Part shown: piece by piece, positions 16,170-19,131 of the stretch
How the letters are laid out: each line of letters starts with the position of its first letter
Numbering within the stretch: the first letter of the stretch is position 1
Assembly: GCA_017618175.1 (NCBI GenBank)
Contig: JAFZUT010000025.1
Coordinates: forward strand, 1-46,555
Direction of reading: 5' to 3'
Source of the DNA: Alphaproteobacteria bacterium
GTDB lineage: Bacteria > Pseudomonadota > Alphaproteobacteria > Rs-D84
Length of the DNA: 46,555 nt
The notes under the pieces: generated by a model
The model's database searches: none
What the model saw: the letters and a program-made list of their open reading frames with translations, nothing else
What the model was told of the DNA's origin: nothing
Translations under genes and position numbers: made by a program

Positions 16170-17177
16170 CTAATTACATAAATTGGAATCGGTACCCAAT
16201 TTGAAAAACCCGGTTGCGTCTTCGTACAGCACACCACGGGGCAGGCAATCATTCTCGCTGGTTGCACCATTTTCGACCGTTTCCATATTGTCCGGACAAT
16301 CTTCGCGACACATATTCGACCCGGGATTATTCAAAGGATAATTAATATCACATCCCGGTGTATAATACGGCTTTGAAACCATATTTTTGCAAACCCGTAC
16401 ACCATATGCCGAATTCACGCCCGCCGGTGCAATAATCAATCCATCAAGTGGCGATGTTTCAACATATGGCAAATACCCGGGATAACATTTTGTGCAATAT
16501 TGTCTTTCCACGGTATAATGAATAGAATCCGTTAAACGTGTTGTGCTGTGGCTGTGCGCGGACGAAATGAAATACTCTGCATTTGCTTTTTTGCACTTGA
16601 CCAAGGTATTGGCAATATCCATATCAATATCTTTGTTTGTCACGGAACAACGACACAACGATGTATCCCATGCATTCCCATCCCAAGTCGCACGCCCGGT
16701 TTGAGATGCTGTATCGCAACTCCATGCCCCATAATCAACAGATATTTCAAAACTGGAACAATCCGTTTCGTTTGCATAACAATTGTTGTCTTCTTCGTGA
16801 CACGCCCCCAGCATATGTGTTTCAATATTGCTGTTCACGGGGTTACATATTTCATATTTTTGACATGGGGCCGGGCAACTTCCAACCTTTTTACATTTCA
16901 ATCCCGTTGGCGTTCCGGCCGGACATGGCGCATCATACCCCGCACATGCCGCAGTACATGCAAAGCACGTATCATCATGGGCCTGACCGACTGGGCAACG
17001 CTCACAACTGTATACATCTTCTAACATTTGGGCATCTGGGTCCCAAACCTGATTTACAACACAGTATTCCGTGGTTGAACAAGTTTCCCAACCACACTGA
17101 CACGTGTCGGCTAATACTGTCCTAGCAGTAAAAACGCCAATCAATGCAACACAAATGTATTTTATGCGAAATCCCAC
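16170..17177 (-). CDS. Cys-rich exported protein
   Basis: Function unknown; about 335 residues with more than 30 cysteines. Start codon is unsure: TTG (17183), TTG (17180) and GTG (17177) are in frame after AAGGA; GTG has the best spacing and is used here. The N-terminus is a signal peptide (IKYICVALIGVFTARTVLA). The mature part opens with CQCGWETC and has repeated CxxCP-type modules (YSCERCPVGQAHDDTCFAC, CTKCYPGYLPY, CREDCPDNMET) reminiscent of EGF- or TNFR-like Cys-rich repeats. Disulfide-rich, so presumably periplasmic or surface exposed. Monocistronic, convergent with tig. The non-ATG start may hold expression low. Confidence 0.82.
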   Translation of the reverse strand: MGFRIKYICVALIGVFTARTVLADTCQCGWETCSTTEYCVVNQVWDPDAQMLEDVYSCERCPVGQAHDDTCFACTAACAGYDAPCPAGTPTGLKCKKVGSCPAPCQKYEICNPVNSNIETHMLGACHEEDNNCYANETDCSSFEISVDYGAWSCDTASQTGRATWDGNAWDTSLCRCSVTNKDIDMDIANTLVKCKKANAEYFISSAHSHSTTRLTDSIHYTVERQYCTKCYPGYLPYVETSPLDGLIIAPAGVNSAYGVRVCKNMVSKPYYTPGCDINYPLNNPGSNMCREDCPDNMETVENGATSENDCLPRGVLYEDATGFFKLGTDSNLCN

Positions 17178-17576
17178 CAACAATCCTTATCTTTCACGAA
17201 ATTGTACCACGCGACGGGTTTGCGGCGCAAGCACAAAATAAAATTACTAGAATACACGCGAAAATTCTAATAAACCTACCAGAAATATGCGTAAAAGGGT
17301 GTTTTTAACCACAAAAACCACCGAAAACCCGCAGAAATCCGCCATTTTTTCAATTTTTTCGGGCCAGAATAGGGCGATTTTCACAAAAATCCACCCATAA
17401 ACACACATAAATGCGTTTTTTATAAATGGGGCCCCACGCGCCACCAAACCACAAAACCAACAGAAACAAAAAAATGAACCACACACAAATAAAATGCAAA
17501 CCGAAAATCTAAAATTTTCGCAAAATTTATTTGATATTGGGCATCACAAAAATAAAACACCCAAAAGCACCAAACG

Positions 17577-17754: not shown

Positions 17755-17885
17755 TATAGTTTGGATGCGTTAGCATACATAACTATTATGGGATTATATT
17801 ATGTATAGTTTGGATGCGTTAGCACACATAACTATTATGGGATTATATTATGTATAGTTTGGATGCGTTAGCATACATAACTATA
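17755..17885 (+). repeat. 49-bp tandem repeat, about 2.6 copies
   Basis: The unit starts TATAGTTTGGATGCGTTAGC and is repeated at 17755, 17804 and 17853 with an exact 49-base period; only an A/C change (CATACAT versus CACACAT) separates the first two. The third copy is cut short after ACATAACTAT and runs into CATAATATACATTATG. Confidence 0.92.
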
Positions 17886-18343
17886 CATAATATACATTAT
17901 GCGCCTTTTGCATGTCACCGCCTATTTATCGCCCAAACGTCGTTTTTACACCAACCTGTTTTCAAAGAAAAAACATTGTGTTATGTTGCAAACTTTACAA
18001 AATATTTTAACATAATTCCCCGAACAGATGGGAAAATTGCGATAACCGAATACAAAATGCCGCGTTTCATTTTTCAAAAATCATTTATAACAAGATACCG
18101 ACTATTTAACACCCCGTTTTTACCACAAACACCACAAAAAAATGCTGATTTTGACCAAATCTGGGAAACCCACGCCCCGCCCCACCCCAAAAATAAAGCA
18201 AATTTTCACCAAACAGAAACAACCGCCCAATTTTACTAATATTTTTTAATTTATCTAAAATTTATTTTTGCCCCGAAAAACGCCCATTTTTGGCAAAAAT
18301 TAGCTGTTTTTAATAAACAAAACGCCCCCGCAAAAAAATGTTC

Positions 18344-18373
18344 TTGCACCACACCATAAAAATATGATATTAT
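18344..18373 (+). promoter_or_regulatory. Promoter of the structured RNA and the 18619 gene
   Basis: TTGCAC, 18-base spacer, TATTAT; the predicted start, about base 18380, coincides with the first base of the first RNA hairpin. Confidence 0.6.
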
Positions 18374-18379
18374 AACATT

Positions 18380-18597
18380 GAACCAGGATGGGAATCCGGT
18401 TCGGGGTCGTAGCTGGCCCACATACGTTCGGTGCAAAGCATCGTAATCCGCGCGATTTTCATGTTTTTGCACCGTGATAATCCCCCGATATTGGTCGGGG
18501 TGCCGTTGGTGTATATCAGGTAAGATCAATGGAATCATTAACGTATGTGATTAGCTAACACCCCGACCGTCAATTTCCCATTGACGGTTGTTTTATT
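18380..18597 (+). ncRNA. Structured leader or independent RNA, cloverleaf-like, unknown family
   Basis: By hand folding: 5' hairpin GAACC-a-GGAT/ATCC-GGTTC (18380-18402, GGGA loop); a long closing helix made of GGGGT/ACCCC (18403-18407 with 18560-18564), TAGCT/AGCTA (18410-18414 with 18553-18557) and CACATACGTT/AACGTATGTG (18419-18428 with 18540-18549, perfect 10 bp); inside it three hairpins: CGGTGCAAA/TTTTGCACCG (18429-18474), CCCCGA/TCGGGG (18483-18500) and CCGTTG/CAATGG (18503-18532). A terminator follows at once. It does not match RNase P, tmRNA, SRP RNA, 6S RNA or the common riboswitch consensus I know. The exported-protein gene at 18619 begins 21 bases after the terminator with no room for another promoter, which favours a cis-acting attenuator; a free small RNA is the alternative. 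Confidence 0.7.
18566..18597 (+). terminator. Terminator at the end of the structured RNA
   Basis: CCGTCAAT-ttccc-ATTGACGG followed by TTGTTTTATTT. It immediately abuts the 3' strand of the closing helix of the RNA, and precedes the Shine-Dalgarno of the next gene. Confidence 0.85.
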
Positions 18598-18618
18598 TGG
18601 AACAAAAAGGGGGAATCT

Positions 18619-19131
18619 ATGAACAAAAAATTATTATTCGGGGCAATTGCATCCGTTTTCACATTAAACGTATTTGCGGACCCGGTCACAATTACAACAC
18701 AAGATTATGTTGATACCGCGGTCGCCACCAAACAAGATAAAATCGCCGGAAGTGGCACAGAATCTACATACGGTATGCCTTTGCCCGCCTCGGTCATCAC
18801 CGACACCGATACAGATGGGGTTGTTGCAAAACGCGTGATTATATATGGCGATGATTATGATGGTTGGTATACAAGCCCTCAAACCATTGGTAATGCGATT
18901 TTTGCTGGGAATCTGCTTACACAGACACAGGTAAAAGGAATGAAAGACCTTTATGGCTATAGTGATGACGATATGAAAAACGCCATAGTTTCTGCTGATA
19001 TGCTTATGGCGGCTTTTGCACGTACGCGTGAAGTGCTAAACTACAAACAAAAAACTAAAGTCTGTGTTCAATATATTGAAAACGCGGCACAAACCAGTGA
19101 AAACTGCCTGCTGTGGAATTTGCCGGATTAA
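18619..19131 (+). CDS. Small exported protein, YVDT/ENCLLW family (member 2)
   Basis: A 170-residue protein with signal peptide MNKKLLFGAIASVFTLNVFA; the first half of that peptide is nearly identical to the member at 40395-40967. Mature N-terminus TITTQDYVDTAVATKQDKIAG matches the family; C-terminus KVCVQYIENAAQTSENCLLW keeps both cysteines. The middle is unlike the other two members, which share SDAGTVGERG and YKDYLPTM blocks missing here. Strong ribosome-binding site AAAAAGGGGG. Unlike members 1 and 3 there is no palindrome-bounded repeat upstream; a structured RNA with a terminator stands there instead. Function unknown. Confidence 0.88.
   Translation: MNKKLLFGAIASVFTLNVFADPVTITTQDYVDTAVATKQDKIAGSGTESTYGMPLPASVITDTDTDGVVAKRVIIYGDDYDGWYTSPQTIGNAIFAGNLLTQTQVKGMKDLYGYSDDDMKNAIVSADMLMAAFARTREVLNYKQKTKVCVQYIENAAQTSENCLLWNLPD

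Follow-up and report, generated by a model that had tools for sequence, protein, structure and literature searches.

A candidate cis-acting leader RNA of the sRNA-Xcc1 lineage, with a C4-like layout, in Alphaproteobacteria

C4 antisense RNAs are used by phages to keep a gene silent, and in phages P1 and P7 their pairing scheme is described by the sites a1/b1, a'/b' and a2/b2. The C4 RNA itself, which has three stems and ~77 nt, is released from a longer precursor by RNase P and binds the region around a ribosome-binding site (RBS); Acinetobacter baumannii has many variable copies of it (PMC5320573). Another small RNA, sRNA-Xcc1 (Rfam RF02221), was detected in Xanthomonas as an RNA of ~100 nt on a Northern blot, with mapped ends that give 88 nt (PMC2996969). 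Titles and citations present sRNA-Xcc1 as a small RNA that acts in trans, and it lies upstream of symE in Xanthomonas and in integron cassettes (PMC12444791).

The window analysed here, a stretch of 46,555 nt (contig JAFZUT010000025.1), belongs to a lineage of reduced-genome gut bacteria, probably Candidatus Enterousia of the order Rs-D84, with genomes of ~0.9 Mb, whose named relatives come from goat reticulum and a RUG-series MAG (PMC12306168). Between 18344 and 19131 it carries a promoter, a structured RNA and a gene, all on the + strand. We read the RNA, with a probability of about 0.62, as a cis-acting leader of the sRNA-Xcc1 lineage with a C4-like, copy-specific layout, which would control accessory, mostly exported, proteins.

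Layout and folding of the leader

The element extends over ~18379-18597, with the promoter at 18344-18378 and the RBS region at 18598-18619. A preliminary description, made from this one sequence, had placed a promoter directly ahead of a hairpin. That promoter, TTGCAC-18 nt-TATTAT (18344-18373), is under the threshold of a generic consensus scan in the window; among 135 aligned copies, TTG and TATAAT stand at fixed distances upstream of the same 5' hairpin, which bears the assignment out. Transcription would start near 18379-18380, where the hairpin (18380-18402) begins. The terminator proposed earlier was also found by a generic scan, as an intrinsic terminator (18564-18590) with an 11-bp stem (18564-18574 x 18580-18590) and a U-run to 18597.

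The putative regulated gene begins 21 bases past the terminator region and 28 nt from the terminator stem, with a Shine-Dalgarno AGGGGG and start codon at 18605-18622 and the ATG at 18619. Since the median distance from terminator stem to start codon is likewise 28 nt across copies, a second promoter would not fit in between, in agreement with the proposal that the gene has none of its own. The reading frame (18619-19131) encodes a predicted exported protein of 170 amino acids (...FADPVTITTQDYVD...) with no Pfam match. Among six related proteins of named genomes, two, both in MAG RUG14636, have the element 47-51 nt upstream, and the other four have no element upstream. Between the minus-strand gene at 16170-17183 and the RNA element, a 49-nt unit was observed to be repeated three times in tandem at 17755-17901, with copies 98% and 82% alike.

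The predicted minimum free energy (MFE) is -92.4 kcal/mol, against a mean of -68.8 (sd 4.7) for dinucleotide-shuffled sequences, with z = -5.0, and none of the 200 shuffles reaches this value. All ten helices, the terminator included, are fully paired in the window. The 5' hairpin P1 (GAACC...GGTTC, 18380-18402) comes from the fold; it is present in most copies by eye and missing from short variants. The P2 hairpin (18404-18408 x 18415-18419) is paired in 93.9% of alignment cells, with two-sided changes at 5/5 pairs. The closing helix P3 (18419-18428 x 18540-18549) is the perfect 10-bp helix of the preliminary description (10/10 pairs); it is 97.7-100% paired and covaries at nearly every pair. 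The three hairpins that it was said to enclose are P4, P5 and P6. The base of P4 (18429-18434 x 18469-18474) is 97.7% paired with two-sided changes at 6/6 pairs, and P5 (18483-18488 x 18495-18500), assigned to the terminator-permitting state, is 97.7% paired with two-sided changes at 4/6. P6 (18503-18510 x 18525-18532) changes on both sides at 8/8 pairs, and its loop holds a conserved UAUA. Over P2-P6 together, 31/33 pairs change on both sides among 100 distinct sequences, and the covariation in the same set is 0.533; shuffling lowers it to 0.200, and slid helices do not exceed 0.10. For a class-wide set of 40 sequences the values are 0.715 and 0.228 (shuffled). Compensatory changes in homologues are thus abundant in the covariance search of related genomes.

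The term cloverleaf, used in the preliminary description, captures the enclosed hairpins and is incomplete, because the tail pairs in two further helices, both supported by covariation. The pseudoknot PK joins a strand in the P2 loop (UAGCU, 18410-18414) to AGCUA at 18553-18557; it is 95.2% paired and shows all four Watson-Crick pair types at three positions. P7 joins 18493-18502 (GGUCGGGGUG) to 18559-18568 (CACCCCGACC); it is 94.7-97.7% paired and covarying, with U-A, A-U, G-C and G-U all found at one position. Both PK and P7 lie outside the model that built the alignment, and together they are 96.5% paired. A further helix, P8 (AAUCA 18533-18537 x UGAUU 18548-18552), flanks the 3' strand of P3 and is 95.2% paired; its covariation is modest by the alignment count, which is a better measure here than a crude flank test that gave no clear signal. 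P3 and P8 may be mutually incompatible in time.

A nested cloverleaf with a 5' GGGG paired to a CCCC in the tail, as in the MFE fold, was considered and set aside, as covariation gave P2, PK and P7 instead. A protein frame was considered as well. A 95-aa minus-strand ORF does lie over 18251-18538; ORF conservation aside, the compensatory pairs favour an RNA, and insertions within loops and short variants that lack P1 also speak against a coding frame. Judged by its covariation, the structure is a genuine folded RNA, richer than a cloverleaf.

Exclusive helices, the terminator and the downstream genes

The strand UCGGGG is common to P5 and P7, both of which are conserved, and the two helices are therefore mutually exclusive. 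The middle strand GGUCGGGG pairs either backward, in P5, or with the tail, in P7. P7 takes four nucleotides, GACC, from the 5' arm of the terminator in 146 of 185 copies, and 173 of the 185 have an overlap of 3 nt or more. In the window, the P7 duplex is predicted at -20.4 kcal/mol and P5 alone at -12.1; the part of the terminator broken by P7 is worth 12.5 - 3.1 = 9.4 kcal/mol, which with P5 gives a sum of -21.5, all energies leaving out pseudoknot and tertiary costs. On this estimate the P7 state and the state with P5 and the terminator are balanced in the window. From the shared strand, the terminator overlap and the balanced energies together, it follows that P7 would have antiterminator properties. 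The arrangement is that of an attenuator, in which a conserved antiterminator helix (P7, 97.7% paired and covarying) overlaps the terminator stem.

Among 200 distinct copies, an ATG with a Shine-Dalgarno was found 25-70 nt downstream in 157 (random, 7), and a terminator-like hairpin directly after the element in 183 (random, 10.2). The downstream proteins are mutually unrelated. They include signal-bearing, Cys-rich and outer-membrane beta-barrel proteins, lipoproteins and pilin-like gene products, and also DNA methyltransferases, glycosyltransferases, PLD nucleases and ThyA. With a crude signal test, 77% of the downstream proteins were predicted to be exported, compared with 31% of other nearby ORFs. 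A leader of defence genes was considered for this set, and PADLOC and Pfam do give methyltransferases and PLD nucleases, yet exported proteins dominate. Since a few copies (6/200) have no same-strand gene within 260 nt, some may be stand-alone RNAs. Four loci (L034, L111, L151, L156) were observed with no convincing same-strand gene directly 3'.

Two roles had been left open in the preliminary description, attenuation in cis and a small RNA with readthrough expression of the gene, and it is attenuation in cis that is better supported. A trans-acting small RNA gene, of which the terminated transcript or a processed 88-nt core acts on other mRNAs while leak-through expresses the gene, would agree with the ~100-nt RNA and the 88-nt ends of sRNA-Xcc1 (PMC2996969) and with the terminator-like hairpin in 183/200 copies. 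Against it stands the distance to a same-strand start codon, which hardly varies among most copies; the strong association with exported proteins is unexpected under it, and the docking strands of each copy match their own 5' domain. A separate small RNA, terminated or processed, is thus a rather improbable account of this locus.

A small-molecule riboswitch of a new aptamer class would explain part of the same observations. A metabolite or second messenger would stabilise the double pseudoknot and set P7 against P5 and the terminator, and the regulon would comprise surface, exported and mobile genes. The logic of an expression platform is present, P6 has a conserved unpaired UAUA region, and many copies stand before exported-protein, pilin-like and glycosyltransferase genes. 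However, the downstream genes share no common pathway, as the methyltransferases, ThyA, nucleases and lipoproteins illustrate. P3 and PK, moreover, are the most variable parts and covary strongly, which suggests copy-specific RNA-RNA addressing instead, and relatives occur in integrons, on plasmids and beside phage-type genes. The existence of two downstream arrangements on one conserved core (the terminator, and the RBS pairing described below) is typical of riboswitches, and this reading, although unlikely, keeps some weight next to the preferred one of a copy-specific leader acting in cis.

Distribution, kinship with sRNA-Xcc1 and copy-specific strands

A nucleotide search found more copies in the same genome and hinted at a family restricted to the genus. 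Covariance models gave an order-wide and then a class-wide spread instead. With a model built from 16 copies (R1), 10 good copies were found in the genome of the window, and 141 of 156 genomes of the genus carry the element, with full counts of 23, 20, 19, 15, 13 and 9 copies in selected genomes. The element is also present in other genera of the order, in two families, and selected genomes beyond the genus have 38, 30, 13, 13, 11, 11, 11 and 10 copies. A broader model for the class-wide search (R2) found it in 32 of 385 genomes across Alphaproteobacteria. Of these, 28 lie beyond the window's genus, most of them with 1.2-6.5 Mb. A shortened form of ~129 nt, with no P1 and a small P4, was observed in four genomes of the genus (L201, L203, L204 and L017:718-846), where it stands before related genes for PLD-type nucleases. 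Five viral-collection contigs of IMG/VR (L268-L272) also have the element, and one of them carries two.

Plasmids of Rhizobium, Methylorubrum, Novosphingobium, Ketogulonicigenium and Agrobacterium (L315-L319) were observed to carry related, unannotated elements, near replication or partition genes in several of those viewed, and 274 plasmid records match one of these five. The range of the family thus takes in phage-type genes, integron cassettes, rhizobial and agrobacterial plasmids, and uncultured gut bacteria with up to ~38 copies. Culturable carriers of the plasmids, e.g. Rhizobium etli CIAT 652 and Methylorubrum extorquens DM4, allow testing. Multiple copies before unrelated genes, together with relatives on plasmids and in integron cassettes, could also point to a DNA-level recombination or transposition end, recognised as a folded single strand like an integron attC. 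Such an end is highly improbable, given a promoter that keeps a constant distance to the first helix, a terminator at the opposite end, G-U pairs throughout the helices, and the overlap of terminator and P7; no cassette boundaries or integrase were noticed, short of a systematic search.

The preliminary description recognised no known RNA at the locus. For the window copy this holds at Rfam thresholds, as no tRNA, tmRNA or other known RNA was matched, and RF02221 is unmatched in 18300-18650 (cmscan to E = 10). It does not hold for a sister copy, since the copy at contig C9:90443-90532 of the same genome matches RF02221 at 40.4 bits (E 4e-6; cut-off 53), and our own model puts the element in the same position. 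Relatives in larger genomes match RF02221 as well. Other RF02221 matches in other genomes score 28-53 bits, again coinciding with hits of our own model, and Alphaproteobacteria include RF02221 members above the cut-off. Reciprocally, R2 matches RF02221 loci of other proteobacteria with E values of 3e-8 and 5e-8. The outer helix of RF02221 corresponds to P7 and its hairpins to P6 and P8, of which P7 and P6 are strongly and P8 modestly supported here, so that the sRNA-Xcc1-like core P7-P6-P8 is placed by alignment to relatives at 18493-18568 of the window. These matches support a common descent of the window RNA and RF02221.

The likeness extends upstream of the catalogued sRNA. In most of 33 RF02221 loci, by eye, the sequence ahead of the core forms a P2 hairpin with a loop complementary to the tail, and the strand after the P2 hairpin pairs with the P8 loop. 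Pairing with the 5' domain is above the swapped 95% level in 22 of the 33. As RF02221 loci carry P2 and P3-like strands upstream, sRNA-Xcc1 in its catalogued form is the 3' half of this longer RNA. By homology, the element is a distant, longer form of the known, poorly understood sRNA-Xcc1 family, and not unprecedented. On this view the named but unexplained sRNA-Xcc1 forms the tail portion of a larger switch that is precisely defined and whose pairings can be tested, and the arrangement suggests that it acts in cis on the gene that follows, and not solely in trans as a free RNA. In most canonical loci (L285-L314), a hairpin with a T-run was observed by eye between the 5' domain and the core; it resembles an intrinsic terminator, and the 5' domain might be released as a short RNA. 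Judged by eye, the gene after the RNA resembles a phage antirepressor (BRO/KilA-N type) or SymE at L286, L291, L293, L294 and others, all non-alphaproteobacterial.

Two downstream ARRANGEMENTS are found in this lineage of RNAs, RBS pairing in RF02221 loci and a P7-overlapping terminator in the window's lineage. In the RF02221 loci, both 5'-domain strands recur around the Shine-Dalgarno of the next gene, above the swapped 95% level in 19 of 33; at L296, for example, the upstream TCGAAAAccccaATAGTAG returns as TCGAAAAggagaATAGTAG ahead of the ATG. From these complementarities, the tail and loop of the RF02221 core have two alternative partners, the 5' domain and the RBS, which they can capture. 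In the window's lineage the RBS repeat is above the swapped 95% level in 16 of 199 copies, which is about chance, and therefore the part of the C4 scheme that concerns a target in trans finds no support there.

The strands that dock differ from copy to copy. Among the ten copies of the window's genome, mean identity is 0.36 for the P3 strand and 56% for the PK strand, and 0.80-0.90 for P4, the P5/P7 strand and the tail. The docking strands nevertheless match the 5' domain of their own copy above the swapped 95% level in 173 of 199 order copies and 35 of 39 class copies. Strands that drift yet keep their complementarity within a copy are the pattern that would be expected of mutually insulated antisense devices. 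With docking strands that no two copies share, a given RNA would act on its own gene alone. Taken further, 10 to nearly 40 such leaders might form a genome-wide, mutually orthogonal set, in which the processed core of a leader addresses that leader by way of a hypervariable double-pseudoknot 'barcode', and every leader switches one accessory gene by attenuation. This would be a phage-style silencing device domesticated into chromosomal regulation, with the same core capturing the RBS in other proteobacteria; we offer this extension tentatively, as a possibility well short of even odds.

Proposed mechanism and comparison with known systems

In the mechanism that we favour for the window, the promoter would start an RNA with a 5' domain (P1, P2, the first P3 strand and P4) followed by the core (P7-P6-P8). 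By their covariation, the core's hairpin loop and the tail pair with two copy-specific strands of the 5' domain, as P3 and PK, and would thereby dock on it. With the tail docked and P7 formed, we infer that the terminator would be spoiled and the gene read. With docking broken, P5 and the terminator would form and an RNA of ~200 nt would be released. Candidates for breaking the docking are a processed core acting in trans, cleavage by RNase P, a ligand or a protein. In related proteobacteria the loop and tail may pair with sequence that flanks the RBS instead, and the same RNA would therefore control translation there.

The closest parallel in layout is C4 of phages P1 and P7 (RF01695; c4-a1b1), which likewise has a promoter, upstream strands and an RNA with two variable pairing sites. 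As with a1 and b1 of C4, the pairing sites here match upstream strands of the same transcript. The RBS-flanking sites a2 and b2 are paralleled in the RF02221 loci, and the window's lineage is without them. RF01695 has 0 matches in the window's own genome at E<=1 and none by cmscan, and the claim is therefore that the element works like C4, not that it is a member of that family.

With sRNA-Xcc1 the element shares more. The core P7-P6-P8 and the tail align, and in both there are docking strands upstream and a gene downstream. Rfam and the original report cover just an 87-88-nt 3' half, while the window form has ~190 nt. The window's lineage also differs from the sRNA-Xcc1 loci by having the P7-overlapping terminator and by lacking the RBS repeat. 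Attenuating riboswitches and leaders, finally, have in common with this element two helices that exclude each other, an overlap of one of them with an intrinsic terminator, and a gene directly downstream; they differ in that the pairing strands here are hypervariable and copy-specific, which is unusual for an aptamer.
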